Assembly (NCBI GenBank): GCA_903881565.1
Contig: CAIRTR010000302.1
Span: 1 to 36,061 of the forward strand
Direction of reading: 5' to 3'
DNA length: 36,061 bases
Origin: Oligoflexia bacterium
Lineage (GTDB): Bacteria; Bdellovibrionota; UBA1018
Part shown: positions 8,869 to 30,554 of the stretch, piece by piece
Numbering within the stretch: position 1 is the first letter of the stretch
Layout of the letters: the number at the start of each line of letters is the position of its first letter
The notes under the pieces: model-generated
The model's input: the letters and a program-made list of their open reading frames with translations, nothing else
The model's database searches: none
Told to the model about the DNA's origin: nothing
Translations under genes and position numbers: made by a program

Positions 8869-11800
8869 ATGTTCGCACGTAAAAATATTCTGGTGGTCTT
8901 GGTAATACTTGCAGCTCTTATGAGCGCAGCGCTCGGATGGGCGGATGATGTGCCGGGAGCGATACATGGTCTAAAAAGATTTAGAGACTCAACCAACGGC
9001 AATAGCGTCGGCTTGTGCTCGCAGTTTTACGACAGTGCAGAAAAAGGTAATACATCAGGGCTGAAAGGCTGTGTGACCCAGCAAGAAGGTGTGCAGCAAC
9101 GCCAGGCAGAACAAACAAGCACGGCCCTCGGCGCCGCGCTCACGAAAGACACATTTAGAGGTGTGAACCCAGCAGAGGTTGCCGCCTTAATAAACGACCC
9201 GGAAGTTAAAGCCGCTTTTAAAGCCGGAGTGGCGCGAGGTCGGTCTACTCAAATAGACAAACCCGTGTGGACTGAAGCCGAACAAAAGTTTAACGAAAAA
9301 TTAAAAGGCCTCGTGTGCAAAGAAACAAACTTAAGCGCTTCAAAATGCGCGGCTCTCAATGTAGGCGGGGTTTTTACTCCCGCCTTCGATCTAGTTAATA
9401 CGCAAAACACCTTAAGAGATATTCAGCAAATAAAACAAGGTCTCGGCATGGTGACTCCTCCTGCCGGTTCTGGTGGGGCCTCCGTAGCGGGAAAAACTGA
9501 TGTTGCTAAGACCGTGGCTCAGGGAAGTCCCAAGAAGTTGAAAAAGGGTAAACCTGGAAACAGCGACTCCAGTTCAAGTGATTCAGATGATGCAGTTGGT
9601 GTGTCATCTGCTCTTGGCAACCAGGTTATGAGTGAGCTCGGCGCTGCTTATGGAAAAGACAAGACGGTAAAAAAAGAGGACTGTGGTTTTATTCCAATCT
9701 CCGGGACTCTTTGTAAGGGTGCAAAATACTATTCAGATGAGTCAGGATTGAAACTCATTGATGATGTCTTTTATGAGTTAAATAAGCCCGATCTCGTCTC
9801 GGACATAAAGCAGTTTTTGGGTGATCTCTTCATGGAGAATTATCTTCAACAAGTGGTGATGGATGGAGATGTGGCCAACCTCGGCACTCGCGTGGAAGAG
9901 CTGGGCAAAGCTGCGTCTTGTATGGGAGGTGTGAGTGCGGCAAAAGCGATGGCTGCAAAGATTCCCAACTTTTCAGCGGTACCCGAGGGGTCAGAAATTT
10001 ACGGTAAGGTCGCTCAATCTCGACAATCCGAAATGGTTCTAGCCTCTCATTGTAGCGATGCGATCGAAGATCGCTTAGCCGCCCTTCGACAGGAATTGGG
10101 GCTTGAATTTACAAATTCCAAAGGAAAAACCGAAAGCACTGAGGCTCATGCACTCATAACCGAAGAGGATATGGAGATATTGTACGGCGATGGAAAATCC
10201 GAAAGTGCAGTAGGCGCTGTAGGTCAAGGGGCGCGCAAAGTGGGTGTCGCGGTTTTGGATGGTTTGCTTTCGGGTCCGGGATTGAGGCAGTTCCTAAAAG
10301 AGTTTCCAGCAGTCAATCATTTTAAGGAGATGGGTAAGGCAAAGTGTAGTGGACTTTCTACGCTTGCGAACTCAGGCGATATGGCCAATCAAAATCAGAA
10401 ACCTGATTATGACGAAAATGGATTTGATAAAAATAGCGGAGCTTCAAGAATTTCCTATTGCCGCAATGTGATGAGCGAGTTTTCGGCACTTTCTGAAGAA
10501 CTTAATGGGCTTTACTCTTCATATCCAGAAATGGGTGACCTCATTCCTGGCGGAAAAGGAAAGACAGTCAAATCAAGTTTGGCGAAGGCGTCTTCGGAGT
10601 TGCATCCACGTGTTAAGGGTTATGACCTTAACTTCAATCGCAAGAACAATTCAGAACTTCTTGATGCCAACGGCGGCCTCAACTCTTGTATGAATCGATT
10701 CTTAAAGGACCCTGCTAAGCCACAAGAAGGTTTTGTTCCTGTCGGGGAAAAAGCGCTCGCGGCAGCGGCAGCGGGTGTTTCTCAGACAAACAAAACTCGT
10801 CAGGGAACGTTCTTGGCACAGTTGCGTACGATTTGTAAAAATCCTGAAGAATATGTAGAAGCAGCGGTGAGCAATCCCGCACTCATGGGCGCCTACTTCA
10901 ATTGCGAGCGAAAACCCTTTGGGGCGCTCTATGGTGCTTTGGGATTTTCAGCCGAAACAGCCAGCGTGTTTCCTAAGGAGTTTTTGCCAGCCCGTATTGA
11001 CGCTAAGACGTGTGATTCGAGAACAAACTCAGCGCGACTCGCATGTCGAATGAAGACAAAGGCAACCGACACCCAAAAAATGAAAGAGCTTGCAGGTCAC
11101 CTTATCGGAGTCGGAATGGACTCGTTCTTCCTTGCGGGTGGTGTTTTTGGTGGCGCCGGAGGAGCGGCAGGAAAATTAACGACAAAGGTAGTCGCAAAAA
11201 ATGTGCTTCATAACTCGGTCGTGGGTTTTGGGATGATGGAAGCCATGGGATTAATGGGTCCTAGTCAGCGGCAAATTCTGGATCAGATTAGCCGTGATAA
11301 AGCAGTCTATTACGGAGGGGGTGGTGGTGACTCGTCTACGCTCGGCAATGCGACCGCTTCTGAGGAAAAGATCGCAAAGAGCACTCCTCATCTGGACAAT
11401 ATTTACAAAAGTATTGGGATGGCATTGCCCTTCAGTTTCCATGGGGGCGCTCCAAAAGTTGAAACAGTTAAGTATAAGATGCCTGCTCCGGACGTGGCGA
11501 ATTTAGGCCGCGCAATTCGAGATAATAAGATTGATATAAGATCAGTTGAAGAGGATTTGGCTAAGTGGAAAGCGGACCTGACGCGCGAGAAAAGAACAGA
11601 GGCTCCTGGACGTGAAGCAGGAGATGCAAAGGCACGTTGGGCGCGAATCCAAGGCAATATCGACGCGATTCAAGGAATCGTGGATGCGGAAAAAGCAAGT
11701 CAAGCGACAGCAAGAAGGGGAACAATTGACGGCGCACGAACGGCGGCCCTCGATGCAGCACACCAAGAGGTGGCTTCGGCTGGCAAAGTTAAGGGTGGAT

Positions 11801-12273
11801 CCAAGAAGAAGATCGATGCTGGAAAACGCTTTAGAGATGAAGCGGTGCTCGTGGATAAAGCGATGGCAGACCGCGAAAGTGCCCAGCTTGCGGGAGATGC
11901 AGAGCGAGTAAAAGCATTGGATGCAAAGATTCAAGGGCATCTAAAAAAGATTGATGGCATCGCAAAGGGTGACTCAAACCTTGTAGCCGCGGCAGCAACG
12001 GTTAGAAAGGCTGCTGTCGAGTCCGAGCGAATTTTAGAGCCCGAGTTTGCTAAGCTCAAGGGTGAGAAACCTCTTCATGAAATGAGCGCCGAACATATCG
12101 CCGAAGTGAAGGCCAAGTATAAAGAAGTGCTCGAAGATGCTCACTCGAAGTTCCCGGGAGAAGAAATCGAAGCGCTTCAGATTGTCGACATTCTCGCCAA
12201 TCGCGACAAGATGAGCGTAAAAGATATCAAAGAGTACTTCGCAAAGCTTTATCGTGAAGGCTGTAAGCGCTAA
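8869..12273 (+). CDS. large secreted protein of unknown function (1134 aa)
   Basis: Not recognised. A clear signal peptide (MFARKN, hydrophobic core, AALGWAD) sends it across the inner membrane. Residues about 27-230 are A/K/Q rich with several cysteines. A low-complexity Ser/Asp linker (SDSSSSDSDD) follows near 235. Residues about 250-720 hold many Cys residues in a probable folded domain. A Gly/Ala-rich hydrophobic stretch near 744-775 (FFLAGGVFGGAGGAAG) could be a membrane-insertion helix. From about 885 to the end it is charged, Ala/Lys/Glu rich and likely coiled coil, ending in a single Cys. Start ATG 8869 has AAGGGAG 9 bases upstream. The leader carries a sigma-28-like promoter, which suggests expression with motility genes. 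A secreted effector or surface protein is possible but unproven. Confidence 0.85.
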   Translation: MFARKNILVVLVILAALMSAALGWADDVPGAIHGLKRFRDSTNGNSVGLCSQFYDSAEKGNTSGLKGCVTQQEGVQQRQAEQTSTALGAALTKDTFRGVNPAEVAALINDPEVKAAFKAGVARGRSTQIDKPVWTEAEQKFNEKLKGLVCKETNLSASKCAALNVGGVFTPAFDLVNTQNTLRDIQQIKQGLGMVTPPAGSGGASVAGKTDVAKTVAQGSPKKLKKGKPGNSDSSSSDSDDAVGVSSALGNQVMSELGAAYGKDKTVKKEDCGFIPISGTLCKGAKYYSDESGLKLIDDVFYELNKPDLVSDIKQFLGDLFMENYLQQVVMDGDVANLGTRVEELGKAASCMGGVSAAKAMAAKIPNFSAVPEGSEIYGKVAQSRQSEMVLASHCSDAIEDRLAALRQELGLEFTNSKGKTESTEAHALITEEDMEILYGDGKSESAVGAVGQGARKVGVAVLDGLLSGPGLRQFLKEFPAVNHFKEMGKAKCSGLSTLANSGDMANQNQKPDYDENGFDKNSGASRISYCRNVMSEFSALSEELNGLYSSYPEMGDLIPGGKGKTVKSSLAKASSELHPRVKGYDLNFNRKNNSELLDANGGLNSCMNRFLKDPAKPQEGFVPVGEKALAAAAAGVSQTNKTRQGTFLAQLRTICKNPEEYVEAAVSNPALMGAYFNCERKPFGALYGALGFSAETASVFPKEFLPARIDAKTCDSRTNSARLACRMKTKATDTQKMKELAGHLIGVGMDSFFLAGGVFGGAGGAAGKLTTKVVAKNVLHNSVVGFGMMEAMGLMGPSQRQILDQISRDKAVYYGGGGGDSSTLGNATASEEKIAKSTPHLDNIYKSIGMALPFSFHGGAPKVETVKYKMPAPDVANLGRAIRDNKIDIRSVEEDLAKWKADLTREKRTEAPGREAGDAKARWARIQGNIDAIQGIVDAEKASQATARRGTIDGARTAALDAAHQEVASAGKVKGGSKKKIDAGKRFRDEAVLVDKAMADRESAQLAGDAERVKALDAKIQGHLKKIDGIAKGDSNLVAAAATVRKAAVESERILEPEFAKLKGEKPLHEMSAEHIAEVKAKYKEVLEDAHSKFPGEEIEALQIVDILANRDKMSVKDIKEYFAKLYREGCKR

Positions 12274-14078: not shown

Positions 14079-15254
14079 CTAAAGCATTGCAAGTTCAGGG
14101 TGGGCAATGCGGCCATCTATCTTTTCAACTTCAGATTCTTTGCCAGGCCAGTTTGCCGTGTATAAGACAGCGCGATACTCCATCACCCTAAAGTGCTTCT
14201 TTACGGCTTGAAGAAGTGGATTGCGTTCCGAAAACCCCAAAGCGAGATATGACCAGCCTTTATCGAGCGAAAAGCGGTGGGCTGCGGAAACCAGCGTGAT
14301 AAAAACGTCCTCATTCAGATCGTCTATGGCAATGTGTGAGAGATAAGCGTGAGGGAAAACGCAGCCGATATCAGGAAGCTTGGGCAGGCCAAGCAGGGGC
14401 CCGAAAATATTGATCAAGGGACGGGCTACCCTCATCCACCCCGAATAGCCTCGCACCACGGATTGTTTGAAAGCCATTTGGTTCCAGATCGCAAGACAGC
14501 CGACAATAGCTCCATTTTGAACGGCGACAAAAAAATCCTCGATTCTTAAGCCGCGACAACGAAGAGGATCAACCAGGTTTTGTTCCGTCCACACGGGCGT
14601 AAACTGAAACCGTTTTCCGTTTCTTTGCAGGCATTGAACAATCTGGGAAAGATCAGAAAATGTTGCTGAGCGAATTTTAAAGTCTCGCATTTTCGTGGAA
14701 AAGTTTCGTGACAATATCCGCCTTCGAGAAAGCGGCAGTGCCAGCGTCGAAAAAACCTCACGCTCGTGATAGGTCGGGAAACCTTTAACTCGATTCGATC
14801 CTAAATAGCGCCGGGCAGCGATGTTATCTTCGATGATGGTCGTGATAAAGAAGGGAGGCGGATCCGTTTCCTTTTGATAGAGCTTAAGTGAAAGCTCAAA
14901 GGAGCGAACGGGAACGCCTCTTTTTTTCTGATATTCGCGTGCGACGCGCATCTGACTATAATATCCGATCTTGCGCTGCTCGCCGTTTATCCAGGCTACG
15001 AAGTCGGCACGGCTTCCCATCCCAACAATACGGTGAGTGTGAGGCTCCCGAACGGCATAAGTTTGGTGGGTGTCCCCTTCAACCGTTGAAGCTTCAAAAA
15101 AACTAGGCTCCCTCTCGAAAGTTAAGGAGACCGAGCCTGGCATCTCGGTTTCGCGAAGCAGCTGTCTTATGCTCTCGTCTTCTTCTGGGCCTGCGACGAG
15201 GTGCTCTAGGTCGTGAGATGAGAGTTTGTTTAGGGGGGATTCAAATTCTTTCAT
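14079..15254 (-). CDS. tandem GNAT-fold N-acyltransferase
   Basis: Cytosolic protein of 391 residues with two GNAT-like halves. The first (about 60-195) has HRIVGMGSRADFVAWING, a strand YYSQMRVAREYQKKRGV corresponding to the acyl-CoA pyrophosphate loop, and FFITTIIEDNIAARRYL. The second (about 205-375) begins FKIRSATFSDLSQIVQ and includes FFVAVQNGAIVGCLAIWNQ and AYLSHIAIDDLNED. Known GNATs move an acyl group from acyl-CoA or acyl-ACP to an amine. The substrate here is unknown. ATG 15254 is chosen; the divergent GNAT-like gene starts only 35 bases away, so both probably share one control region and pathway. Confidence 0.78.
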   Translation of the reverse strand: MKEFESPLNKLSSHDLEHLVAGPEEDESIRQLLRETEMPGSVSLTFEREPSFFEASTVEGDTHQTYAVREPHTHRIVGMGSRADFVAWINGEQRKIGYYSQMRVAREYQKKRGVPVRSFELSLKLYQKETDPPPFFITTIIEDNIAARRYLGSNRVKGFPTYHEREVFSTLALPLSRRRILSRNFSTKMRDFKIRSATFSDLSQIVQCLQRNGKRFQFTPVWTEQNLVDPLRCRGLRIEDFFVAVQNGAIVGCLAIWNQMAFKQSVVRGYSGWMRVARPLINIFGPLLGLPKLPDIGCVFPHAYLSHIAIDDLNEDVFITLVSAAHRFSLDKGWSYLALGFSERNPLLQAVKKHFRVMEYRAVLYTANWPGKESEVEKIDGRIAHPELAML

Positions 15255-15288
15255 TTTACGGTCCAACACGATTAAGCTAGAACTTATT

Positions 15289-16029
15289 ATGACCTTTACT
15301 AAACGAACGCTCAAGGCTGAGCTTCGAAAAATATCCGATCTCACGGTCTCTCAGAAGAATAGCATGTGGGAAGTTTTTTGTCGTTATTACGACAACGCCA
15401 GTCGCGAAGCTTTTGAGAGGGATCTTGAGCAAAAAACGGAGGTTATTCTTCTAAAGGATGTGAAGGAGGGCAGTATTCAGGGGTTTTCAACCCTTCACTT
15501 TTCAAAACGGATTCACGAGGGAAAGCGCGTCGCGGTGGTATTTTCGGGGGACACTGTGATTGAGAAAAGGTACTGGGGACAGTCGGCGCTTCAGTGGAGG
15601 TTCTTTTTCTATGTTATCCGCAAAAAATTGACACACCCCTTTCATCGGACTTACTGGTTTCTGATCTCAAAGGGTTACAAAACATACCTGTTGCTGACGC
15701 GTAACTTTGTTGAATATTGGCCGCGCTATGAAGAGCCGACTCCTCCCTGGCAGTTGAGTCTCATTGACACGCTCTCGCGTGAGCGGTTTTCCGGTGCGTG
15801 GGTGCCAGAACGAGGTGTAATCGACTTTAAGGGCACCAAGGATATCCTACGAGAAAGTATCGCTCCAATCAGAGAGGAGCTGCTCAAAGTTCCCGACATT
15901 CGATTCTTTGTCGAAAAGAATCCGGGACACGGTAAAGGCGACGAGCTCTGTTGTCTGGGGCGAGTAGATTCAAGAATGGCTCAGGTTTATCCTCGGAAAA
16001 TCATTAAAAGGCTCTTAAGAAAAAATTGA
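15289..16029 (+). CDS. GNAT-like protein of unknown function
   Basis: A 246-residue cytosolic protein. The central part resembles a GNAT fold: GFSTLHFSK, a strand VAVVFSGDTVIEKRYWG, an aromatic helix ALQWRFFFYVI, then YWFLISKGYKTYLLLTRNF. Motifs such as EEPTPPWQLSLIDTL are distinctive but I cannot tie them to a named activity. It faces away from the tandem GNAT gene across 34 bases. It is followed after 69 bases by the radical SAM/MMPL operon in the same direction and may be its first member. Start ATG 15289 lacks a clear Shine-Dalgarno (TAGAACTT upstream). An acyltransferase acting on a lipid or peptide substrate is the working guess. Confidence 0.62.
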   Translation: MTFTKRTLKAELRKISDLTVSQKNSMWEVFCRYYDNASREAFERDLEQKTEVILLKDVKEGSIQGFSTLHFSKRIHEGKRVAVVFSGDTVIEKRYWGQSALQWRFFFYVIRKKLTHPFHRTYWFLISKGYKTYLLLTRNFVEYWPRYEEPTPPWQLSLIDTLSRERFSGAWVPERGVIDFKGTKDILRESIAPIREELLKVPDIRFFVEKNPGHGKGDELCCLGRVDSRMAQVYPRKIIKRLLRKN

Positions 16030-16098: not shown

Positions 16099-17547
16099 AT
16101 GGGCAAGTTTTTGACGGTTCTCATGGGGGTATCATTGCTATTGAGTTCAAACCCAGTGCTCGCTGACAAGGCAGTGGCAAAAGCCTATCGAGCAGCTGAT
16201 CTCACCGCATTTCCCTGGCTAACCGAAGCGCAATATCAGAAACAAAAGACGGTGGCTGTTCAACGCGGAAGTCGCGGCGTGGCCTCCTCTTCAGAGTTGA
16301 GTGATGATCTTTTGAGTCCCGAGTTCAAAGCATTTCGCACCAAGTTTTTTGCAACCCAAACTGCGAATCAGCTCCATCAGTTGATCAATGAATCGGATGC
16401 CGGTTTTGATGCCTATCCCAATGACCTAAAATTTTTCCTTTCGAATCTAAGTGTGATGAAGACTTACCGCGGAATTCTGTTCCGCGCAAAACCACTCGTT
16501 TCACCAGTGCCCGTCGTACATAGCATGATCTTAAGCTGGCTGCGTATGTTGGTGACCAGCACTCAAGTGGGGCTTCCTACCGGCCAATGGAAAGCCGGAA
16601 TTGCCTACATAACGGAACCACCCGAAGAGCAGGTTGCTTACATCAAGACTGAAGATGATTTGGCGCATTTCTTCTCTGATGAACTTTATCCCGCGATGTT
16701 GAAGTCTGCGACGCGCCTTCAGGGCCTGAATCTTGATAAACCCATCATTTGGGATAACCAAATGCTTTACGGCACCGCAAGTTTTCAAGACAGCCTTGAT
16801 CGTTACTTTTTGATCGACCAAGCGGAACTAAATGCTGCCCTCTCCATGGTTCACGGGAACTTGAATGGGATTGCAGCATTGTCAGCCTATCGCATTTCGG
16901 ATTCATTCAAGGCGATGGAGAAGCTTGGTTTTCTCTACGGCTTTGATGGCTTCAAATTTGGAGTTGAAGGCGGACCCGCTCGCGATCGCGTTGAAGTGAT
17001 CAAGAAACTTAAAAACTACCTCGTTTTAAGAGATCCTGCATGGATGAAGCTTTCGTTCAAGCACTTGCAAGAATCCACCTGGCGCGCTGGCCTCGTTTGG
17101 CAGGAGCTCAAGGACAAGCCTCGTTCCAATCGCATGGTTTTTAGAAATGCCGTCTTCTCGGCTTGGAATCGTGAAATCGATCTGAACTTCGGGACGATGG
17201 AATCTTTGATGAAGGGCAAGACCGTTGTTCGCAGTGCGATCACGGGCGAGACCCTCACGGTAGATCTTCAAGCGTTTTTCGACAATCCTCCACAAGATCT
17301 GAAAGCCTTGTTGCCCACAGCTTTTGAAGAAGGTCCGAAGATGATAAAAAAAGGCTCGGGCGCTTTCAAAGGCGAAAAATATCGAAACTACTTTGAAGGC
17401 CAAGCAACGGCTTGGAACGTTGAGCTTTATAAGAAGTACTTTCCTGACCTTAAATCCAGCGGCGATATCCCAAGCGCGTACCGCATTCTGACCCAAGCGT
17501 GGGGCGGCGGATTGCCTGCAGGAGCACTTGGGGCTGCTATTTTTTGA
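16099..17547 (+). CDS. secreted protein of unknown function, first gene of radical SAM/MMPL operon
   Basis: Not recognised. It has 482 residues with a signal peptide (MGKFLTVLMG, hydrophobic core, SNPVLAD), so a periplasmic or exported product. The body is largely helical and aromatic-rich, with no lipobox and no transmembrane helix after the signal. The C-terminus is Gly/Ala rich (WGGGLPAGALGAAIF). Start ATG 16099 is well supported by AAGGAG with 7 bases spacing. Its TGA overlaps the TTG start of the first radical SAM gene, so the two are translationally coupled. MMPL/RND exporters often have periplasmic partners, and by position this protein could be one. That role is inferred from context only. 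Confidence 0.78.
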   Translation: MGKFLTVLMGVSLLLSSNPVLADKAVAKAYRAADLTAFPWLTEAQYQKQKTVAVQRGSRGVASSSELSDDLLSPEFKAFRTKFFATQTANQLHQLINESDAGFDAYPNDLKFFLSNLSVMKTYRGILFRAKPLVSPVPVVHSMILSWLRMLVTSTQVGLPTGQWKAGIAYITEPPEEQVAYIKTEDDLAHFFSDELYPAMLKSATRLQGLNLDKPIIWDNQMLYGTASFQDSLDRYFLIDQAELNAALSMVHGNLNGIAALSAYRISDSFKAMEKLGFLYGFDGFKFGVEGGPARDRVEVIKKLKNYLVLRDPAWMKLSFKHLQESTWRAGLVWQELKDKPRSNRMVFRNAVFSAWNREIDLNFGTMESLMKGKTVVRSAITGETLTVDLQAFFDNPPQDLKALLPTAFEEGPKMIKKGSGAFKGEKYRNYFEGQATAWNVELYKKYFPDLKSSGDIPSAYRILTQAWGGGLPAGALGAAIF

Positions 17548-18917
17548 TCCCCTTTCGGCTCACCTTAGTTCATCCCTGTATTGGTCGGCGTCAAGGCCAG
17601 AGCTATATCAAGCTCTGGCAGATGGAACCATTGCCTCCCGCCGTCATCGCGACACTCACGCCGAAGGATGTTAAGGTCAGATTTTACGATGATCGAATGG
17701 AGCAGATCCCGTTTGATGAAGCGACGGATCTCGTGGCGATTTCGGTAGAGACCTATACTGCAAAGCGGGCCTATCAAATTGCGACAGAATTTCGCAAGCG
17801 TGGCGTCCCCGTGATCATGGGAGGATTTCATGCATCTCTTTGCCCTGATGAAGTCTCAAAGTACGCTGAATCCGTTGTCATAGGCGAAGCAGAGGATCTT
17901 TGGGAGCAGGTCATTGAGGACTATCGCACGGGGAAGCCCAAACGTTTCTATAAATCCGAAACCCGGCCGAAGCTGGATGGATCAATTCCGGATCGCAGTA
18001 TTTTTCAGGGGAAAAAATACCTGCCCGTTCATCTGATTGAGGCGGGACGAGGCTGTCCCCTTCATTGCGAGTTTTGCGTGATCCAGACGATGTTTGGTCA
18101 AACTCAGAACTCACGCCCTGTGGAACAGATTCTGCGAGAGCTACATGCGGTCAAAGACCGCAAAAAACTTGTCTTCTTCATTGATGACAACGTGATTTCA
18201 CACCCAGGTCGAGCCAAGGAGTTTTTCAGGCAGCTCATCCCGCTTAAGTTACGTTGGGTCAGTCAAGCCACGATCAATGCCGCTCAAGATGAAGAGTTAT
18301 TGGCCTTAATGGCCCAAAGCGGCTGCCAGGGAGTTTTGGTTGGGTTTGAAAGCATGGAGCCCAAGAATCTTGCGCAAATGGGAAAACAGGTCAATTTGCG
18401 CTCGCAAGGCGGCTACGAGCAGGCGCTTCAAAACTTTGCGCGGCACCGGATTCGGGTCTACGGAACTTTCGTTTTTGGATACGATCACGACACACCCGAG
18501 ACGTTTGAGAAGGCCCTGGACTTATCATTAAGGCATGGCTTTTTTCTCACGGGCTTCAATCACCTTACGCCCTTTCCAGGAACGGAACTCTATAGTCGCT
18601 TGGAGCGAGAAGGCCGACTGCTCTATGACCGTTGGTGGATGGATGATCGCTACAGTTACAATATGCTGCCGTTCAAGACGCTGGGGATGGCTCCAGAGGA
18701 CGTTCAACGTCATTGCGTGCTGACTCGAAAGCGATTCTATTCAGTACCCGGAATTTTGCGTCGCTCTATCCATCCGGTGAATCGCTTTGATCCTTATATG
18801 TTCATGCAGTTTCTCTCGATTAACTTCATGCACTTAGTTGAGGTGAATGTTCGTAATCACTATCCCCTAGGGGATCAGAGTTTTCAGGGCCCTCTGCTTG
18901 AGGTGCGGGATACTTGA
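17544..18917 (+). CDS. B12-binding-domain radical SAM protein 1
   Basis: Radical SAM enzyme of the class with an N-terminal cobalamin-binding domain, 457 residues. The N-terminal Rossmann-like part is MIPFRLTLVHP, VRFYDDRMEQIPFDEATDLV, VIMGGFHASLCPDE and VIGEAEDLWEQV. The DxHxxG cobalamin ligand motif is absent, as in many class B enzymes. The 4Fe-4S motif CxxxCxxC is GCPLHCEFC (about residues 171-178). Then come FFIDDNV, GVLVGFESM and YGTFVFGYDHDTPETF. Known relatives methylate or rearrange unactivated carbons in lipids, tetrapyrroles and natural products. The start is taken as TTG 17544, overlapping the previous stop as TTGA, because residues from there fit the family N-terminus. Confidence 0.88.
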   Translation: MIPFRLTLVHPCIGRRQGQSYIKLWQMEPLPPAVIATLTPKDVKVRFYDDRMEQIPFDEATDLVAISVETYTAKRAYQIATEFRKRGVPVIMGGFHASLCPDEVSKYAESVVIGEAEDLWEQVIEDYRTGKPKRFYKSETRPKLDGSIPDRSIFQGKKYLPVHLIEAGRGCPLHCEFCVIQTMFGQTQNSRPVEQILRELHAVKDRKKLVFFIDDNVISHPGRAKEFFRQLIPLKLRWVSQATINAAQDEELLALMAQSGCQGVLVGFESMEPKNLAQMGKQVNLRSQGGYEQALQNFARHRIRVYGTFVFGYDHDTPETFEKALDLSLRHGFFLTGFNHLTPFPGTELYSRLEREGRLLYDRWWMDDRYSYNMLPFKTLGMAPEDVQRHCVLTRKRFYSVPGILRRSIHPVNRFDPYMFMQFLSINFMHLVEVNVRNHYPLGDQSFQGPLLEVRDT

Positions 18918-21133
18918 AACCGCTTCGTTGGATACAAAAAACTCTGTTTGTTGGTTTCCGCCTTGCGCTTTGGCATCCTAAAACGGTGCTGAGTGCTTTG
19001 GTGCTGGCCCTTGCTCTATCCGTCGTCCCGATCTCCAGAATCAGCTACCTTCTTTCGATTGATGACATGATCGACGCGGATTTTTCGAGTACGCCGCTCT
19101 TGAATCGACTACATTCGGAATTCAAAGAAGCGCACACGTTTCTCATGTTTTTCAAGCGGAAAGACGGGAAACCGCTTGAACTAACTGAAGCCTGTGCGAT
19201 GCGCCGTTGGCTCGCTAAAGTTTCTGCAGAAATGCCCGAGGTCACACGAACGTTCTCTTCATTTTCCATTCGTAAGCCGAGTTGGGATGGGAGTCATCTT
19301 TGGTTTCCTCCCGTTTTAGATTTGGAATGTGATCAAATCAAACGATTTACTTTGCTTAGCAAGGACTCGATGGAGACTTTGGCTCAGTCACCATGGGGGG
19401 GCATTCTTGTCTCTCGTGATCGCAATGATCTGGTGGCCGAGATCTCTCTTCGTCCGGTTTCCAAAAATGGAAGGTTTGGAAGTTTCGATCCAGAGTTTCC
19501 CGTAAAAGTGATGGAGGATTTCGAACAAACTGTTTTGGCGAAAAATCCCGCGACCCAAGTGGCTTGGACCGGTACCTCCGCTTATGAGCATTTTATCAAA
19601 GTGGGCTATGACCGGTTCAATGTTTTAAATCTGATCATGGTGATCTTCGTTATTGTGCTCATTCGTTTGACCTTTGGGACCTTTCGCGCGGCCGGAGTTT
19701 TTCTAGGGAGCATCATTGCGGCTGCCATCCTATTGCATGGGATCATAGGGGTTTGGATTGGGTCGCTTGACTTGCTCTCGAATACGCTTTTCATGATGCT
19801 CATTGTGAGCACCATCGAAGACTTCATTTATCTCTCCTATTTACAAATCGAAGGCATAAAGGTGCACGCCCATTGGCGCACTTCATTTCGGAAACTCTTG
19901 GTGTCCACCTTTTTTACCTCCTTCACGACTATTGTGGGTTTTGGCTCCCTGGCGGCTTCTGATCTAGGTATCGTTCGAAGGTTTGGGGTCTTTGCTGCCT
20001 CGGGGGCTTTTCTCGAGTGGCTCATGCTCTTTATTGTGTTACCTTCTTTTCTTCAGCTTGTGCCGAGCTGGCGAAGTTGGGTCAACCCTGAGCGGGCAAT
20101 TCTTCTGCGTTGGGTTCAGAAAATCACGGTTTGGAGAATTCCAAACCCCCTTGTCCGAGTGTTACTTGTTATTTTCGCTTTTGCTGCTTATGGATCGTTT
20201 CACCTGAATCTTCTTGATTCGCCCAGTTCAGTCTTTCCAGAGAATCATCCCTTTAGAGCGGTGGATCGATACTTTTCGAGTACTCGTGATGTCACCGGAA
20301 ACGCTAGTTTGGTATTCAACGTCCCTGCAGAGAGGGGCAAGAACCAAGAAATTCTCCAGAAAGTCTCCCGTCTCGACAACGTGGCTTTTTCGGAAAATCC
20401 GTTTGCCGTCGAAGCCTACTTTTCACACGGGATGCCACCGCTCCTAGGCGAGGCGATTACACGAAGTTGGCGGGATACGGAAGTGAGTCAGCGGATGATC
20501 TCTAAAGGTGGCGTGGAGCGGGCGATTCTCTATATCCGAAGGTACGACGTCGCGAGTGTGAATCGGCTGAGGGCTGAGGTTGAAAGAATTTGCTCCAAAG
20601 GTGAATGTGAGATCGGCGGAACTTTGGTTTCATATTCCGAATTCGGCGATCGGATTCTGACCACCCTCTTTTCAAGCTTGGGCTTGAGTATGATTCTTGT
20701 GATGTTGATTTTGGTTTGGCTTGCTTGGGAGATGGGGCATCGAGCGTTGTTGCCCATTCTGATCTCCGCTCTTTGGGGACCTGCGGCGATGATGGCCGTG
20801 ATGTGGGCGTTTCAGGTTCCGATAAATCTGTTCACCTGCTTGTGTGCCTCCGCGTTGTTGGGTCTGACGGGCGACAATACTATTCAGTTCCTATTTGGGA
20901 AAAGTGTTCTTCATGAAAGCGTTTCAAAATTAGGGAGTGCTTCGATTCTTGTGGCCTTGATCATGGCAACCTTGTGTCTCACTTTTCTTTTTGCCTATTT
21001 TTCGCCGGCTCGCACACTGGGGGTTCTCATGATGGTGGGTTTCGTTGTAGGCTTGATTGGAGATTATTGGATCCTTCAGGGCCTTTTGCCCCGAACTCAA
21101 TTTCGGCCTGAAGTTCAAAAGGAGAGTCGATGA
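18914..21133 (+). CDS. MMPL-family RND exporter
   Basis: Inner-membrane RND-superfamily protein of 739 residues in the MMPL/HpnN-like group, which use proton motive force to move lipids and other hydrophobic molecules. The layout is two-fold: TM1 near residues 20-40, a periplasmic domain to about 230, a block of five TM helices (about 230-400), a second periplasmic domain (about 410-580) and a final block (about 580-725). Each half has one RND helix bundle, as expected for a duplicated fold. The segment ALLGLTGDNTIQFLFG matches the conserved TM4-type motif region. It starts with TTG, overlapping the upstream stop as TTGA, and ends overlapping the next gene as ATGA. It sits between two B12/radical SAM genes, which suggests the exported compound is their product. 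Confidence 0.88.
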   Translation: MKPLRWIQKTLFVGFRLALWHPKTVLSALVLALALSVVPISRISYLLSIDDMIDADFSSTPLLNRLHSEFKEAHTFLMFFKRKDGKPLELTEACAMRRWLAKVSAEMPEVTRTFSSFSIRKPSWDGSHLWFPPVLDLECDQIKRFTLLSKDSMETLAQSPWGGILVSRDRNDLVAEISLRPVSKNGRFGSFDPEFPVKVMEDFEQTVLAKNPATQVAWTGTSAYEHFIKVGYDRFNVLNLIMVIFVIVLIRLTFGTFRAAGVFLGSIIAAAILLHGIIGVWIGSLDLLSNTLFMMLIVSTIEDFIYLSYLQIEGIKVHAHWRTSFRKLLVSTFFTSFTTIVGFGSLAASDLGIVRRFGVFAASGAFLEWLMLFIVLPSFLQLVPSWRSWVNPERAILLRWVQKITVWRIPNPLVRVLLVIFAFAAYGSFHLNLLDSPSSVFPENHPFRAVDRYFSSTRDVTGNASLVFNVPAERGKNQEILQKVSRLDNVAFSENPFAVEAYFSHGMPPLLGEAITRSWRDTEVSQRMISKGGVERAILYIRRYDVASVNRLRAEVERICSKGECEIGGTLVSYSEFGDRILTTLFSSLGLSMILVMLILVWLAWEMGHRALLPILISALWGPAAMMAVMWAFQVPINLFTCLCASALLGLTGDNTIQFLFGKSVLHESVSKLGSASILVALIMATLCLTFLFAYFSPARTLGVLMMVGFVVGLIGDYWILQGLLPRTQFRPEVQKESR

Positions 21134-22599
21134 TTTGGTTTTATCAGTATCCGAATTACTGGTTTTCAGTGTTGGCTTCTCTCGTTCTCATTATCGTGGG
21201 CTTTAGGGTCTATCGAATTCGCTCTCGGGAGTCGGGCCTGATAGGGTCGTACATTGAGGGTAGCTCTAGAAAACCACTTCGGATTTTACTGATTCACCCT
21301 CAACATCGAATTCAGCGTCATGGTACAGGTGTCTACAAGAAGTATCTTCGTTATGCGCCCGTGACGATGCCCACCCTTGCCGCCCTTGTTCCGAAAGACC
21401 GGGATGTTCAGATTCAAGTGATCGATGAAATGGTGGAAACAATCGATTTTGACTTAGAGGCCGATATCTTGGGTGTAACTTCAATTACCAGTACAGCTCC
21501 AAGAGCCTATGAAATAGCCAAGCACTTTAAGAAAAAGGGGGCTTACACCGTTATGGGCGGACCCCATGCGACCCTCCTGACCGATGAAGCATTGGAAAAT
21601 GTGGATACCGTGATTCGAGGCTATGCTGAAACCTCGTGGCCACAGTTTATTAGAGACTTTCAGGATCAAAAACAAAAGCGGCTTTACGAGGGGAACCTCT
21701 CTCCGATTCGCGATGTGATTGTTTCTCCTGATCGGCGATTCATCAAGCGATCAGGGTACGTGGCCTGCGACACGGTTGAGATGAGTCGAGGATGTTCAAA
21801 GCGCTGTGATTTTTGCGTGACCCATCACTTACATAATGCTTTTGTCACCAAGGATATTAAGCAGGTGATCAATGAGATTCGCTCGCTCCCCGGGCGAATC
21901 GTGACGTTTTTGGATCCTAATCTCATTGGAAACGTTGCTTTTGCCAAAGAGTTTTTCACGGAACTTGCGAAACTCAATAAGTATTGGGCGGGCAGCGTTT
22001 CGATTGATGTTCTGGAGCATCCAGAGCTGCTTGATCTCATGGTTAAGAGCGGGGGCCGCGGTTTTCTCATTGGCTTTGAATCCTTGGATCAAGCGGCCTT
22101 GGACAGTGCGAACAAAAGCTTCAGCAAAGTTTCTCGATATGCGGATGCGATTGCGACTCTTCACAGAAAAGGGATCATGGTTCAGGGGAGTTTTGTGTTT
22201 GGGTTTGATGTGGACACGCGAGACACCTTTGATCAGGTGCTGGATTTTGTGGTGCGGGCCAAAATCGATCTCCCGCAGTTTACGATCTATACGCCGTTTC
22301 CCGGGACTGCCGCCTATACACGGTTGCATAAAGAAGGGCGCATTTTGACAAAAGATTGGTCGCGCTACAACGGGCATGAAGTTGTGTTTCAGCCCAAGAA
22401 CATGTCTCCCCAGGAGCTTTTCGACGGAGTCTCTCGAGTGTGGGCTGAGGCCTATTCGCTCCCTTCAATAGCAAAGCGCCTGACCGACCCTCCGTATCTT
22501 CTAAAGCCGATTACCCTTTTGTCGAATCTCAATTTTAGGGCCTTTATGCGTCGGGTTCACATCGAGGAGGCTGGGCACATTTTTCGGCCAGAAGCGTAA
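21130..22599 (+). CDS. membrane-anchored B12-binding-domain radical SAM protein 2
   Basis: Second radical SAM/cobalamin-type enzyme, 489 residues. Unlike the first, it opens with a hydrophobic helix (about residues 7-26, YWFSVLASLVLIIVGF) and a basic stretch, so it is probably tethered to the inner membrane with the catalytic part in the cytosol. The cobalamin-type domain is ILLIHPQHR, VIDEMVETIDFDLEADILG, YTVMGGPHATLLTDEA and VIRGYAETSWPQF. The cluster motif is GCSKRCDFC (about 221-228), followed by VTFLDPNLIG, GFLIGFESL and QGSFVFGFDVDTRDTF. It is a paralogue of the first enzyme by layout, not a close copy. ATG overlaps the exporter stop (ATGA). A membrane tether beside an exporter suggests a lipid substrate. 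Confidence 0.87.
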   Translation: MIWFYQYPNYWFSVLASLVLIIVGFRVYRIRSRESGLIGSYIEGSSRKPLRILLIHPQHRIQRHGTGVYKKYLRYAPVTMPTLAALVPKDRDVQIQVIDEMVETIDFDLEADILGVTSITSTAPRAYEIAKHFKKKGAYTVMGGPHATLLTDEALENVDTVIRGYAETSWPQFIRDFQDQKQKRLYEGNLSPIRDVIVSPDRRFIKRSGYVACDTVEMSRGCSKRCDFCVTHHLHNAFVTKDIKQVINEIRSLPGRIVTFLDPNLIGNVAFAKEFFTELAKLNKYWAGSVSIDVLEHPELLDLMVKSGGRGFLIGFESLDQAALDSANKSFSKVSRYADAIATLHRKGIMVQGSFVFGFDVDTRDTFDQVLDFVVRAKIDLPQFTIYTPFPGTAAYTRLHKEGRILTKDWSRYNGHEVVFQPKNMSPQELFDGVSRVWAEAYSLPSIAKRLTDPPYLLKPITLLSNLNFRAFMRRVHIEEAGHIFRPEA

Positions 22600-25484: not shown

Positions 25485-25550
25485 TCTACAGCCTTTTTAG
25501 CTGCACTATTGCCCCCAACTGCGGTACTGCTTTTGACAGGAAAACACCGC

Positions 25551-27770
25551 ATGTTAAAATCGACCTTTGTTGGAAAATCGGTTCCTCGTAAAGAAGCGTT
25601 GAGCAAGATTACGGGAGCAGCCAAGTACATTGATGACCTGAGCTTTCCGGGAATGATCCACGGCGTGACCGTGCGAAGTCCGGTGGCGCGCGGGCGGCTG
25701 AAGAAGATTTCGTTTGAGGGCGATTTGCCGTGGAACGAGATCACGCAAGTCACAGCAAAGGACATCCCCGGCGAAAACTGTGTCGCCGTCATTCTCAAAG
25801 AGCAGCCCATGCTCGTGGATGGCATGATCAATCATCCCGAAGAGCCCATTGTGCTCCTCGCCCACCCAGATCGCGCACTGCTTGAAAAAGCGCGCAAGAA
25901 TGTGAAATTTGAAATCGAAGCTCTGCCCTCTGTATTGAGTATCGACGACGCGCTGTCAAAGAAGGCCGTGGTTTGGGGCAGTGATAATATTCTAAAATCT
26001 TACCTTGTTGAAAAAGGTGACATCTCTCAGGCGTTTGCCGAGGCCGACCTCATCGTTGAAGGCGAATACACCACCGGCGCTCAAGAGCAGCTCTACATCG
26101 AACCCAACGGAATGATCGCAGTCGCCAATCCCAAAGACGGCGTCACCGTTTGGGGCTCTTTGCAGTGTCCGTTTTATGTGCACAAAGCGCTGAAGACTCT
26201 TTTTGGTTTACCGGATGATAAAATCAGGGTCATCCAAGTTGAAACAGGCGGAGGCTTTGGCGGTAAAGAAGACTATCCGTCTTTAATTGCGGGCCATGCG
26301 GCCCTCTTGGCTTGGAAATCAGGCCGCCCCGTCAAAATTATTTATGATCGCGCCGAAGACATGGCTGCAACCACGAAGCGTCACCCCTCGCGCACGCGCC
26401 ACAAAACGGCTGTAACAAAAGAAGGCAAAATCCTAGGCATGGACATCGATTTTGTCCTGGATGGCGGTGCCTATCTCACGCTCTCGTCCGTTGTGCTTTC
26501 GCGCGGAACGATTCACGCACCGGGTCCCTATGTTGTCCCCCATGTACGAATCAAAAGTGCGGCTGTCGCCACGAACACGCCACCTCATGGGGCTTTTCGC
26601 GGCTTTGGCGCGCCTCAAAGTATTTTCGCGCTTGAGCGACACCTGGATGTCGTGGCTGCTCGTTTAGGTCTGAGTCCTGAGGAGATTCGGCGTCGCAACT
26701 TCATTCATCAGGGTCAGCAAACGGCGACTTCTCAAACGATTAAAGAGCCCGTGGATTTTGATAAACTCATGGATCGCGCTTTTGAGATGAGTCATTATCA
26801 CTCGAAAATAAAGCGCTTTGAGATCGAAAACAAAACAAGCCCCATAAAAAAGGGAATCGGTTTTGCCGCCTTCATGCATGGCTCAGGCTTCACGGGCTCA
26901 GGTGAAGTTTATCTGGCTTCTGTTGCGGGTGTGGAAGCGACCTCCGAAGGACGAATTCGCGTCTTGGCTTCAAGCACAGAGATTGGTCAGGGCAAGAATA
27001 CCGTATTTGCGCAAATCGTCGCAGATGCGCTGTGTGTGGACGTAGGCCTGGTGGATGTGGCGCAACCGGATACGTCGGTGGTCCCTAATAGTGGACCCAC
27101 GGTGGCCTCACGAACGACGAGCGTCGTTGGAAAATTGGTTGAAGATGCCGCCAAAGGATTGCAAGCAACGTTGCGGCAAAGTGGTTTTTTGGGCGAGAGC
27201 TATACGAGCGCACAGTTTCAAGAAGCCTGTCTTGTGTATTTGGAAAAATTTGGGAGTCTCAAGACCCTCAGTCAATACAAAGCCCCTCCTGGAATTTTTT
27301 GGGATGACGAAAAATATCGAGGCGATGCCTACGGGACGTTTGCCTGGGCCGTTTATGTCGCTGAAGTCAGCGTTGATACCCGTACCTTTGAAGTGAAGGT
27401 TGACGACTTCGTCGCTGTTCAAGAGATTGGTCGTGTGGTCAATCCACTTTTGGCTCAGGGTCAAATTGAAGGCGGTGTGATTCAAGCTTTAGGATACGCG
27501 ATTTATGAAAACGTCATTTGGAAAGACGGCCGCATGGCCAATAATCGCATGACCAATTACATCATCCCCACGACGATGGATGTTCCGCGTGTGCAAGTCC
27601 ATTTTGAAGAAGTTCCCTATGCCTACGGGGCTGCAGGATCTAAGGGGATCGGCGAACTTCCGATGGATGGTCCGGCACCTGCTGTAATTAATGCCATTGC
27701 CCACGCAACGGGCGGGGATTTTAAACATATTCCACTGATGCCTGAAGATTTGATGAGGATACTCACATGA
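25551..27770 (+). CDS. xanthine dehydrogenase, molybdenum-binding subunit
   Basis: Large catalytic subunit (739 residues) of a three-subunit xanthine dehydrogenase, which oxidises hypoxanthine and xanthine to urate. Molybdopterin-binding and active-site segments are intact. TGGGFGGKE near 231-239 ends in the Glu that contacts purine in xanthine-type enzymes. GAFRGFGAPQ near 346-355 has the substrate Arg. GSKGIGELP near 696-704 has the general base Glu. The Glu and Arg favour xanthine over aldehyde as substrate (known from bovine and Rhodobacter enzymes). ATG 25551 is chosen, with ACAGGA about 10 bases upstream; a longer form from 25509 has no support. Its stop overlaps the next gene as ATGA, the first link of a tightly coupled operon. 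Confidence 0.93.
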   Translation: MLKSTFVGKSVPRKEALSKITGAAKYIDDLSFPGMIHGVTVRSPVARGRLKKISFEGDLPWNEITQVTAKDIPGENCVAVILKEQPMLVDGMINHPEEPIVLLAHPDRALLEKARKNVKFEIEALPSVLSIDDALSKKAVVWGSDNILKSYLVEKGDISQAFAEADLIVEGEYTTGAQEQLYIEPNGMIAVANPKDGVTVWGSLQCPFYVHKALKTLFGLPDDKIRVIQVETGGGFGGKEDYPSLIAGHAALLAWKSGRPVKIIYDRAEDMAATTKRHPSRTRHKTAVTKEGKILGMDIDFVLDGGAYLTLSSVVLSRGTIHAPGPYVVPHVRIKSAAVATNTPPHGAFRGFGAPQSIFALERHLDVVAARLGLSPEEIRRRNFIHQGQQTATSQTIKEPVDFDKLMDRAFEMSHYHSKIKRFEIENKTSPIKKGIGFAAFMHGSGFTGSGEVYLASVAGVEATSEGRIRVLASSTEIGQGKNTVFAQIVADALCVDVGLVDVAQPDTSVVPNSGPTVASRTTSVVGKLVEDAAKGLQATLRQSGFLGESYTSAQFQEACLVYLEKFGSLKTLSQYKAPPGIFWDDEKYRGDAYGTFAWAVYVAEVSVDTRTFEVKVDDFVAVQEIGRVVNPLLAQGQIEGGVIQALGYAIYENVIWKDGRMANNRMTNYIIPTTMDVPRVQVHFEEVPYAYGAAGSKGIGELPMDGPAPAVINAIAHATGGDFKHIPLMPEDLMRILT

Positions 27771-28222
27771 AACCTACCCACTTTGTTTTGAATGGCAAAA
27801 AGACGGAAATCGCTTCACCCCCCATGAGCAGGCTTCTGGATGTCTTGCGCGAAGAACTGCATTTGACAGGCACCAAAGAAGGCTGCGGCGAAGGTGAGTG
27901 CGGGGCCTGCAGTGTTCTCATTGACGGTGAGGTCGTGAATAGTTGTCTGGTTCCACTCGCTCAGGTCGAGGGGGCTGAAGTGCGGACGATTGAAGGTGTT
28001 ATTGAAGATCCTCGTTTTAAGGTGCTGCAAAGCGAATTTGTTGCGCACGGGGGGGCACAATGCGGGATCTGCACCCCAGGGATGATTGTTTCGAGCGCAA
28101 GCTTGCTTGAGAAAAATCCACATCCAAGGCGTGACGAGATTGAAAACGCACTGGCGGGTAATTTGTGTCGCTGTACCGGGTATTCTAAGATCATTGATTC
28201 AGTGGAGGCGGCATCCAAATGA
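27767..28222 (+). CDS. xanthine dehydrogenase, 2Fe-2S subunit
   Basis: Electron-transfer subunit, 151 residues, normal length. The plant-type ferredoxin cluster is bound by EGCGEGECGACSVLIDGEVVNSC. The second, helical cluster is bound by AQCGICTPGM and NLCRCTGY. All eight cysteines are present. It passes electrons from the Mo site to FAD. It overlaps both neighbours by 4 bases as ATGA, so subunits are probably made in balance. Gene letters for the three subunits differ among species, so none is given. Confidence 0.95.
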   Translation: MKPTHFVLNGKKTEIASPPMSRLLDVLREELHLTGTKEGCGEGECGACSVLIDGEVVNSCLVPLAQVEGAEVRTIEGVIEDPRFKVLQSEFVAHGGAQCGICTPGMIVSSASLLEKNPHPRRDEIENALAGNLCRCTGYSKIIDSVEAASK

Positions 28223-29097
28223 AAACCAATGCTGCTGAATTTGATCTTCGCACTCCAGCGACACTTGGCGAAGCGCTCGCTTTACTGGGAGAACCTCAGG
28301 GTAAGTGGCGTCCGTTCGCAGGCGGAACAGACCTCATGGTTCTTTTGGAGTCAGGCAATTTAATGCACAAGAATTTTGTGAATCTGCGAGGATTTAAAGA
28401 GCTTCGAGGTATCGAAGTTTCGCCTCAGTTTGTGGTTCTTGGAGCCCTGACTACGTTTTCCGCAATTCAGGAAAATGAATTGATTAAAAAGGAGTTTCCT
28501 TGTCTGGTTCAGGCGGCCGCTCAGGTTGGGGCGATTGCGATTCAGAATCGAGGAACCATCGGCGGAAATATTGGCAACGCGTCGCCTGCCGCGGATTCGC
28601 CCCCTGCACTTTTGATTTACGACGCTGAGATTGAGTTGATGAGTACCTCTGGGGCGCGCTGGGTCTCTTACGATAGTTTTCATACGGGATATAAAAAGAC
28701 ACTGCTAGGCGCGGGAGAGTTGATTTCTAAAATTCGCTTGCCTCGTACTACACGTGCCTCGGGAAGAACCGTTCACTATTTTCGAAAAGTAGGCGCCAGA
28801 AAAGCCCAGGCGATTTCGAAGGTCAGTGTCGCTGGATGGGCTCACGTAGAAAAGGGCGTTATCAAAGAAGTGCGTTTGGCTCTGGGGAGCGTTGCTCCCA
28901 CCGTGGTTCGTGGAAAAAATACCGAAAACTTATTGAAAGGGAAGGTCCTGTCGCCCGCTCTTTATGAAGAGGCTCGCAGTATTTTAGGGGGCGAGATTTC
29001 GCCTATCTCCGACATTCGATCCACCGACGTTTATCGAAAACGAATCGCACAAAACCTCTTAAGTGAGTTCCTCGAGCATGTGGGATTGGATCAGTAA
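28219..29097 (+). CDS. xanthine dehydrogenase, FAD-binding subunit
   Basis: FAD subunit of the CoxM/XdhB-like family, 292 residues. The FAD-binding motifs are RPFAGGTDLMVLLE near 31-44 and QNRGTIGGNIGNASPAADSP near 109-128. The C-terminal substrate-side domain is complete (LGSVAPTVVRGKNTE). It hands electrons to NAD+ or another acceptor. It starts with ATGA overlap on the 2Fe-2S gene, and its last 20 bases overlap the start of the XdhC-type gene. Confidence 0.94.
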   Translation: MKTNAAEFDLRTPATLGEALALLGEPQGKWRPFAGGTDLMVLLESGNLMHKNFVNLRGFKELRGIEVSPQFVVLGALTTFSAIQENELIKKEFPCLVQAAAQVGAIAIQNRGTIGGNIGNASPAADSPPALLIYDAEIELMSTSGARWVSYDSFHTGYKKTLLGAGELISKIRLPRTTRASGRTVHYFRKVGARKAQAISKVSVAGWAHVEKGVIKEVRLALGSVAPTVVRGKNTENLLKGKVLSPALYEEARSILGGEISPISDIRSTDVYRKRIAQNLLSEFLEHVGLDQ

Positions 29098-29863
29098 ACT
29101 CAGCCAGCTCAGACAGCAAGGAACCCCTGCGGTTCTCGTTACCGTTTCACAGGTGAGTGGTTCTGCGCCCCGAGAAATCGGCGCTAAGATGATCGTTTTG
29201 GAGAAAGGAAAATTCTTTGGAACCATCGGTGGCGGTCGCCTTGAGGAGTTGGCTTTGCAAGACGCTCAGAAAACTTTTACAGCGGGTAAAGCGCAGTCGA
29301 TTCGATATCCGCTAGGCGCAAAGACCGGGCAATGTTGTGGAGGGGTGGTGGAACTGCTTATGGAAGTCATGAATACAGGACCTTTATTGTATATTTTTGG
29401 GGCAGGCCATGTGGGGCAAGCGGTATGCCGAACTTTCGTAGGAACACCGTTTCAAATTCACGTCATTGATGAGCGCGAGGAGTGGGTAAATTCTGATCAA
29501 ATTCCTCCAGAAGTAATTCGGCATCACTGTCCTTCGGGCGAATGGGATGATTTTGTTAAAGAAGCTATTTGGGATGATCAACGAGTTTACGTTGCAATCT
29601 TGACACACCGACATGACCTGGATCAGGAAATTTGTTCAAAGCTCCTTAACCATCCCCGCCGTTTTCTTGGTATGATAGGAAGCAGTTCAAAATGGAGTCG
29701 GATTCAAGAAAGACTGCTTCAGAAAGGGGCAACACAATCCGATCTAAACCAAGTGCGGTGTCCGATGGGTTTGTCGATTGGCGGCAAGGCCCCGCAGGAG
29801 ATCGCAATCAGCCTGGCGGCGGAGGTTTTAAGCATTCACTATGGAACAAATCACAAGCACTGA
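29078..29863 (+). CDS. XdhC-family molybdenum cofactor maturation factor
   Basis: XdhC/CoxI-family protein of 261 residues. XdhC binds molybdenum cofactor, helps its sulfuration and inserts it into xanthine dehydrogenase. The N-terminal domain has SGSAPREIGAKMIV and GTIGGGRLEE. The C-terminal Rossmann domain has LLYIFGAGHVGQAV, and LTHRHDLDQEI, FLGMIGSSSK and PMGLSIGGKAPQEIAIS follow. ATG 29078 is chosen over GTG 29063; both overlap the FAD-subunit gene. It overlaps the next gene by 23 bases. Placement directly after the three subunit genes fits the role. Confidence 0.9.
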   Translation: MWDWISKLSQLRQQGTPAVLVTVSQVSGSAPREIGAKMIVLEKGKFFGTIGGGRLEELALQDAQKTFTAGKAQSIRYPLGAKTGQCCGGVVELLMEVMNTGPLLYIFGAGHVGQAVCRTFVGTPFQIHVIDEREEWVNSDQIPPEVIRHHCPSGEWDDFVKEAIWDDQRVYVAILTHRHDLDQEICSKLLNHPRRFLGMIGSSSKWSRIQERLLQKGATQSDLNQVRCPMGLSIGGKAPQEIAISLAAEVLSIHYGTNHKH

Positions 29864-30554
29864 AACCGAGAAGCAACATGAGAGTCGTCGATATGGAATG
29901 ATCCTTTTAGCGGGCGGAGCCGGCACGCGAATGGATTGCCCTAAGGGGCTTTTGCCTTTTTCAGGAAAGCCTTGGGTCCTGGAGCAAATCAATCGCTTCA
30001 GGAATGTCGGAGGTCGGACGGTCGTGGTGGTCCTGGGGAACAAGAGTTCCAAGTACCTTTCCGATATCCCGGATTTTAAGTACGCGCTCGACACCGTGTA
30101 TGAGTATCGCGGAATGAATCTTAAAGTTGTGGTGAATAAGAATTTCGAATCCGGACAGTTTTCCTCGCTGCAGGCTGGAATTCGGGGTCTTTTTGATGGG
30201 AAAGATTCGGCATGTTTTCTTTCAACTGTGGATACGCCGCTCGGAGGTCCTGAGGCTTATCGCTCTTTAGAGACCAACATATCGGAGTTCCCAAACCTTC
30301 AGGCTGTAGTGCCTGAAGTTCAGGGTAAAGGCGGGCATCCCATCTTATTGAGTCGAACATTTGCTCTCTCTCTTTTGAGTCTTGACCCGTGGGCCGAAAC
30401 CTCGCGCTTGGACTCGATCTTGAGGATGGCGCCGTGGGAGAAGGTCAGGCGCGTTCCAGTTGGGGATCCCTTGATCACGCTCAATATCAATACCCCAGAG
30501 GATTGGCGTACATTTGTCGCGTCTTGTGAGAAGAAGCCGCGGCCGTTTTCTTAG
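29841..30554 (+). CDS. MobA/MocA-like molybdenum cofactor nucleotidyltransferase
   Basis: Nucleotidyltransferase of 237 residues in the MobA/MocA family, which converts Mo-molybdopterin to the cytosine (MocA) or guanine (MobA) dinucleotide form. The P-loop-like start is LLAGGAGTRMDCPKGLLPF. ESGQFSSLQAGI and LSTVDTPLGGPE carry nucleotide- and metal-binding residues, with KGGHPILL later. Bacterial xanthine dehydrogenases can use either form, so CTP versus GTP is left open. ATG 29841 overlaps the XdhC-type gene by 23 bases. The 3' end overlaps leuS by 4 bases on the other strand. It is the last gene of the operon. Confidence 0.85.
   Translation: MEQITSTETEKQHESRRYGMILLAGGAGTRMDCPKGLLPFSGKPWVLEQINRFRNVGGRTVVVVLGNKSSKYLSDIPDFKYALDTVYEYRGMNLKVVVNKNFESGQFSSLQAGIRGLFDGKDSACFLSTVDTPLGGPEAYRSLETNISEFPNLQAVVPEVQGKGGHPILLSRTFALSLLSLDPWAETSRLDSILRMAPWEKVRRVPVGDPLITLNINTPEDWRTFVASCEKKPRPFS

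Follow-up and report, generated by a model that had tools for sequence, protein, structure and literature searches.

A secreted protein and an MMPL-type exporter form a near-obligate pair in a recurrent gene cluster family of the Bdellovibrionota that may produce a tailored acyl-amide lipid

Little is known, to our knowledge, of the way in which pumps of the MMPL group pass their cargo on through the periplasm of Gram-negative bacteria. Among the closest described systems are the aryl polyene clusters, for which an RND exporter and Lol-like partners have been proposed to serve an outer-membrane lipid (PMC8253772), and an ornithine lipid pathway in which the GH3-like enzyme OlsH makes N-acyl ornithine from a free fatty acid and ATP (PMC12493201). 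Methylation at unreactive carbon or phosphorus, ring contraction and ring formation are among the reactions of known B12/radical SAM enzymes (PMC13331322). Here we describe a locus in which an exporter of the MMPL group stands between two genes for such enzymes, behind a gene for a secreted protein.

The window, by which we mean the whole 36,061-nucleotide stretch analysed, is contig CAIRTR010000302.1 (C302) of assembly GCA_903881565.1 from an Oligoflexia bacterium (UBA1018, Bdellovibrionota). Four open reading frames follow one another on its + strand: SEC, a 482-residue protein with a Sec signal peptide and no lipobox (16099-17547), the cobalamin-binding radical SAM enzyme RS1 (17544-18917), the RND/HAE3-type exporter MMPL (18914-21133) and a second cobalamin-binding radical SAM enzyme, RS2 (21130-22599). 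A preliminary description of this DNA held the four genes to be coupled by 4-base overlaps, and this is borne out: all four frames are open and the overlaps are exactly TTGA, TTGA and ATGA in that order, with RS1 and MMPL starting at the TTG and RS2 at the ATG of their respective overlaps. Two predicted acyltransferase genes lie upstream, GNATp on the + strand (15289-16029) and GNATm on the - strand (14079-15344 as the longest open reading frame, although an ATG near 15254 is the likelier start). A scan for promoters and terminators found such sites no more numerous than in shuffled sequence. Elsewhere in the window, positions 8869-12273 encode a 1134-residue secreted protein with low-complexity stretches, of unassigned kind, and the region 3' of the operon (25509-30554) appears by eye to hold a molybdenum hydroxylase set with large, iron-sulfur and FAD subunits and XdhC-like and MobA-like proteins.

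The strongest association that we observed is between SEC and MMPL. In 369 genomes of the phylum Bdellovibrionota, SEC homologs are found in 65 and members of the MMPL subfamily (E < 1e-40) in 64, and the two occur together in 62 genomes compared with 11.3 expected (hypergeometric 4e-64, a value not corrected for kinship). A set of 37 further genomes together with that of the window organism contains 47 MMPL copies, of which 42 lie at most 10.5 kb from a SEC gene and 30 stand right next to one; many of the genomes compared are metagenome-assembled, and a broken contig may have hidden or divided a cluster. Where a genome holds two or three copies of SEC, an equal number of MMPL copies often lies alongside. 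The adjacent pairs are divergent in 11 cases, co-directional in 7 and convergent in 7, so the link outlives rearrangement, which indicates that the tie is functional and not just an inherited gene order. SEC and the MMPL subfamily are thus a near-obligate pair.

The leading gene had been described as encoding a secreted protein of no known family, and our searches agree. Neither the SEC sequence against the Pfam, NCBIfam and PDB sequence families nor a 40-member SEC profile against Pfam and PDB gave a credible match. All 40 SEC homologs have a signal-like N-terminal segment and none has a lipobox. An AlphaFold2 model built from nine sequences (mean pLDDT 74.9, pTM 0.79) is helical for the most part, with a small C-terminal part that contains beta structure, and its best fold match in the PDB (E 0.35, TM 0.14) amounts to no match. 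SEC is therefore a protein family of its own, and nothing in Pfam or among PDB folds resembles it credibly enough to place it with LolA/LolB-like partners. One low-sensitivity scan beyond the phylum, run with a 6-row alignment, returned 8 loci, so an absence of SEC outside the phylum is tentative. We put forward tentatively that SEC founds a class of periplasmic lipid carriers with a new fold and is the obligate partner of this MMPL subfamily and a functional counterpart of LolA and ApeL, serving a modular family of B12/radical SAM-tailored acyl-amide lipids in the Bdellovibrionota. Several charged residues are invariant across the SEC homologs, and SEC could also be an enzyme instead of a carrier.

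The assignment of the exporter to the MMPL group stands. It matches PF03176 with 48 bits (cut-off 20.5) and its hydropathy is consistent with about 12 transmembrane segments in an RND layout, which places it in the MMPL/HAE3 class. In 33 aligned members D303 in the TM4 region, G653-D654 in the TM10 region and a C560/C565 pair are all invariant.

Hopanoids had been named among the cargoes of known MMPL exporters, and an operon devoted to hopanoids or related triterpenoids, which HpnJ/HpnR-like radical SAM enzymes would modify and an HpnN-like pump export, would account for the low-scoring matches of RS1 and RS2 to HpnJ and HpnR and for a squalene-cyclase-like protein encoded in the genome. These scores fall far below the curated cut-offs, however, at 89 of 578 bits for HpnJ and 20.8 of 751.85 bits for MMPL on the HpnN model, and another transporter of the same genome, on contig C131, resembles HpnN far more (259.5 bits). 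The cyclase-like protein is encoded outside the cluster, scores below cut-offs and has a signal peptide. We consider hopanoid cargo very improbable. The two genes concerned are observations in their own right. The cyclase-like protein (L095:7834-9774, - strand, G000 contig C323) has 647 residues, a DTDDT motif and an apparent signal peptide, is matched best by tetrahymanol synthase (425.6 bits, cut-off 500) and is possibly a secreted cyclase relative. The other (L097:825-5588, G000 contig C131) encodes an HpnN/BstA-like MMPL transporter near a protein that looks by eye to be of the MCE/MlaD type, and is a separate lipid transport locus.

That the operon encodes two B12/radical SAM enzymes is supported by the domains of both, with the refinement that these are paralogs sharing 35% identity. 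RS2 matches both the radical SAM family PF04055 and the B12-binding family PF02310 over the cut-offs. RS1 exceeds the cut-off for PF04055 and scores 29.2 bits on PF02310, slightly under the cut-off of 32.1. The CX3CX2C motif is intact in each (at C171 in RS1 and C222 in RS2), and with this motif and the two domains both belong to the cobalamin-dependent radical SAM class. The genome also encodes a B12-dependent methionine synthase activation domain, which makes cobalamin use plausible. Orthologs of RS1 are 65% identical at locus L078 and 60-61% identical at L079 and L080; those of RS2 are found in genomes G040 and G041 only, at 62-63% identity. RS2 begins with a 48-residue extension containing a transmembrane helix (21130-21275) that is missing from both orthologs (L079/L080, G040/G041). 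This helix would place RS2 at the membrane, and the protein is possibly a membrane-anchored B12/radical SAM enzyme.

Five supported paralog clades were resolved in a tree built from 46 radical SAM proteins. RS1 and RS2 are represented in the window and a third paralog, RS3, on contig C314 of the same organism; the RS4 and RS5 clades are pairs in other genomes, often beside Rieske and desaturase genes. Against the NCBIfam equivalog models for HpnJ, HpnR, BchE, PhpK and the ladderane radical SAM enzyme, RS1 and RS2 scored far below cut-offs throughout, the best value being that of RS2 on BchE (102 bits, cut-off 481.35); RS1 reached 68 bits on the ladderane-type TIGR04072 (cut-off 360). At two other loci (L041:16486-17646 and L046:4096-5274) we noted a PF04055 protein with no B12-binding match, whose gene directly precedes three to four B12/radical SAM paralogs of the same cluster.

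GNAT-type genes had been reported upstream of the operon, an assignment that holds for GNATp by predicted fold and less firmly for GNATm, where it is a matter of a sub-threshold sequence match. Profile searches of Pfam, NCBIfam and PDB with the two proteins gave nothing usable. An AlphaFold2 model of GNATp from three sequences (pLDDT 77.5) gave 224 Foldseek matches at E <=0.001 and resembles AAC(2')-like GNAT proteins (E 3e-7) with a moderate TM of 0.42-0.56, which supports a GNAT fold. GNATm, a predicted tandem GNAT-type acyltransferase, has no Pfam match above cut-off and no convincing match among PDB profiles, and shows a weak GNAT likeness through Acetyltransf_1 at E 0.067. GNATp is kept across the cluster family: 81 of the 369 genomes have it. 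Among the 65 SEC genomes it is found in 46 (14.3 expected), and the 16 genomes with RS1-like genes at E < 1e-100 all carry it (3.5 expected). The excess holds within the largest family alone, at 27 compared with 13.6 expected for SEC and 13 compared with 5.3 for RS1-like genes. GNATm homologs lie at 13 of 40 SEC loci, and the ortholog in the L078 cluster is 46% identical.

Throughout the phylum, homologs of the six genes are found repeatedly in one another's company. At 40 SEC loci, within a distance of about 10 kb, we counted MMPL at 34, GNATp at 23, a GH3 enzyme at 22, Rieske oxygenases at 16 and 9, an NqrB-like/FG-GAP/UnbV protein at 15, PAP2 at 13 and B12/radical SAM genes at 12, and fatty acid desaturases of three types, AurF-like diiron proteins and a fatty acid hydroxylase were also recurrent. 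At L078, in an Oligoflexia MAG that belongs to the window organism's family, MMPL, GH3, GNATp, RS1, GNATm, RS3 and SEC lie within 11 kb. The window locus itself has no GH3 gene. RS3 and GH3 of the window organism adjoin on contig C314 (at about 17094-20147), and their L078 counterparts are 76% and 52% identical to them, respectively. Comparison with relatives thus suggests that the window locus is one half of a split cluster set, the other genes of which lie on C314. In another family, L079 and L080 hold RS2, GH3, RS1, GNATm and RS3 together.

This comparison alters how the operon should be viewed. Its exact four-gene layout is not conserved, and an exporter between two radical SAM genes was found in the window genome and in none of the relatives compared. 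It could be argued from this that the four genes are neighbours with unrelated jobs, coupled in translation by chance. All of the partners are recurrently co-localised, however, and the co-occurrence statistics speak against chance; for SEC-MMPL and for RS1-GNATm-GH3-RS3 such an explanation is largely excluded, and overall we give it hardly any credence. The scattering that the preliminary description named as a refutation is therefore seen for the gene order, while the RS1 and RS2 orthologs still share loci with GH3 and GNATm (L079, L080). The GNAT genes do belong to the pathway, and the conserved unit is not the operon but SEC-MMPL with GNATp, GNATm and GH3. From the sequence comparisons, the radical SAM genes form a tailoring set that varies and changes its place within a cluster family that is recurrent in the Bdellovibrionota and previously had no name.

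The GH3 protein gives the best indication of chemistry. It matches PF03321, PF23571 and PF23572 over the cut-offs, as well as the plant GH3.12 and JAR1 structures, and is the only strong GH3 match in the window organism's genome. Its nucleotide motifs (TSGST..K.IPY, ATEG and RYxxxD) are intact and recognisable in 18 homologs, the first reading RSGGATSTNKMIPY in the window organism, and these features assign it to the GH3 acyl-amide synthetases. Its only NCBIfam match is OlsH (NF052613) at 33.7 bits, under a cut-off of 620; it does not qualify as an OlsH, and ornithine is not implied. Because acyltransferases and many chain-modifying enzymes accompany GH3, the product is most likely an N-acyl amide lipid, and the desaturases, fatty acid hydroxylase, PAP2, Rieske and AurF-type proteins of sister clusters point to an acyl chain.

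We therefore lean slightly towards a pathway for an N-acyl amide lipid that is tailored by B12/radical SAM enzymes and exported by MMPL with SEC as its periplasmic partner. In the cytoplasm, GH3 would use ATP to activate a fatty or other acyl acid and join it to an amino acid or amine, and GNATp and GNATm would add further acyl groups. RS1, RS2 (putatively membrane-anchored here) and RS3 would act on unreactive carbons in the chain or the headgroup, C-methylation being the likeliest reaction and ring formation a possible one. MMPL would then move the finished amphiphile over the inner membrane, and SEC may receive, carry or finish the product in the periplasm on its way to the outer membrane or the outside. 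The product, its substrate, the reaction of each radical SAM enzyme, the carrier role of SEC and the final location are what we infer from sequence and from analogy. Of the claims made earlier, a pathway that modifies and exports an envelope lipid or small molecule still fits best, now refined to a SEC-MMPL pair with GNATs and GH3.

The same genes could instead make a freely secreted small molecule (an antibiotic, predation factor or signal), with MMPL as an efflux pump and SEC as a processing enzyme or binding protein. The tailoring enzymes differ strongly among genomes, as they do in clusters for natural products, secondary metabolism typically employs proteins of the AurF, Rieske and UnbV-like types, and the invariant charged residues of SEC would be expected of an enzyme. 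Against this, no PKS/NRPS core is present among the families identified at SEC loci, a lipid is the better fit to the HAE3/MMPL class and to the abundance of enzymes that modify fatty acids, and SEC is tied to MMPL as tightly as a transport partner would be; a secreted small molecule is a serious contender that we nevertheless judge unlikely. Enediyne clusters typically encode UnbU and UnbV as separate proteins, and a 927-residue fusion of an NqrB/RnfD-like membrane domain, FG-GAP repeats and ASPIC/UnbV at L067:4937-7717 and 14 further SEC loci is therefore a lead.

Peptides, nucleosides and sugars are further substrates of B12/radical SAM enzymes, and the enzymes of this family might modify a ribosomal peptide, or SEC itself, with MMPL exporting the modified peptide. 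Some B12/radical SAM C-methyltransferases do act on RiPPs, and rSAM_ocin_1 and ApyD are among the low-scoring matches. In a peptide pathway, however, GH3, desaturases and PAP2 would be out of place, neither a gene for a precursor peptide nor a recognition element stood out among the genes inspected, and a radical SAM gene is present at just 12 of the 40 SEC loci, which leaves a peptide substrate quite improbable.

On the preferred reading of a tailored acyl-amide lipid, the family points to a range of probable acyl-amide products, and to five paralogous B12/radical SAM enzymes, in a phylum to which predatory bacteria belong. For the study of MMPL handover, a clean system is offered by a pump that is matched one-to-one with a periplasmic partner in >60 species.

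The layout had been thought to correspond to no described system, and our search of the open-licence literature for GH3, MMPL, radical SAM and Bdellovibrio likewise found no description that matches it. The closest comparison is with ApeM/ApeL/ApeN of the aryl polyene clusters, which share with this family an arrangement in which an unusual-lipid cluster (the lipid being putative here) includes an RND exporter of its own and periplasmic partners dedicated to it. Unlike those clusters, no ketosynthase/ACP core was identified in the present family, and SEC has no recognisable family or PDB fold whereas ApeL and ApeN resemble LolA and LolB. With the planctomycete OlsH/OlsI pathway the family has in common a GH3-like enzyme with conserved nucleotide motifs and a (here predicted) amide-forming step, but GH3 is distant from the OlsH model and the cluster adds GNATs, B12/radical SAM enzymes, MMPL and SEC. 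The ladderane-type TIGR04072 enzymes and BchE are B12/radical SAM proteins acting on a lipid or ring, as RS1 and RS2 may also do, although RS1 attains 68 of 360 and RS2 102 of 481.35 bits on these models. The hopanoid system differs in that its curated models are missed widely and a better HpnN-like gene lies elsewhere in the genome, but HpnN with HpnJ and HpnR offers the same combination of an MMPL/HAE3 exporter with lipid modification by B12/radical SAM enzymes that we predict for this family.
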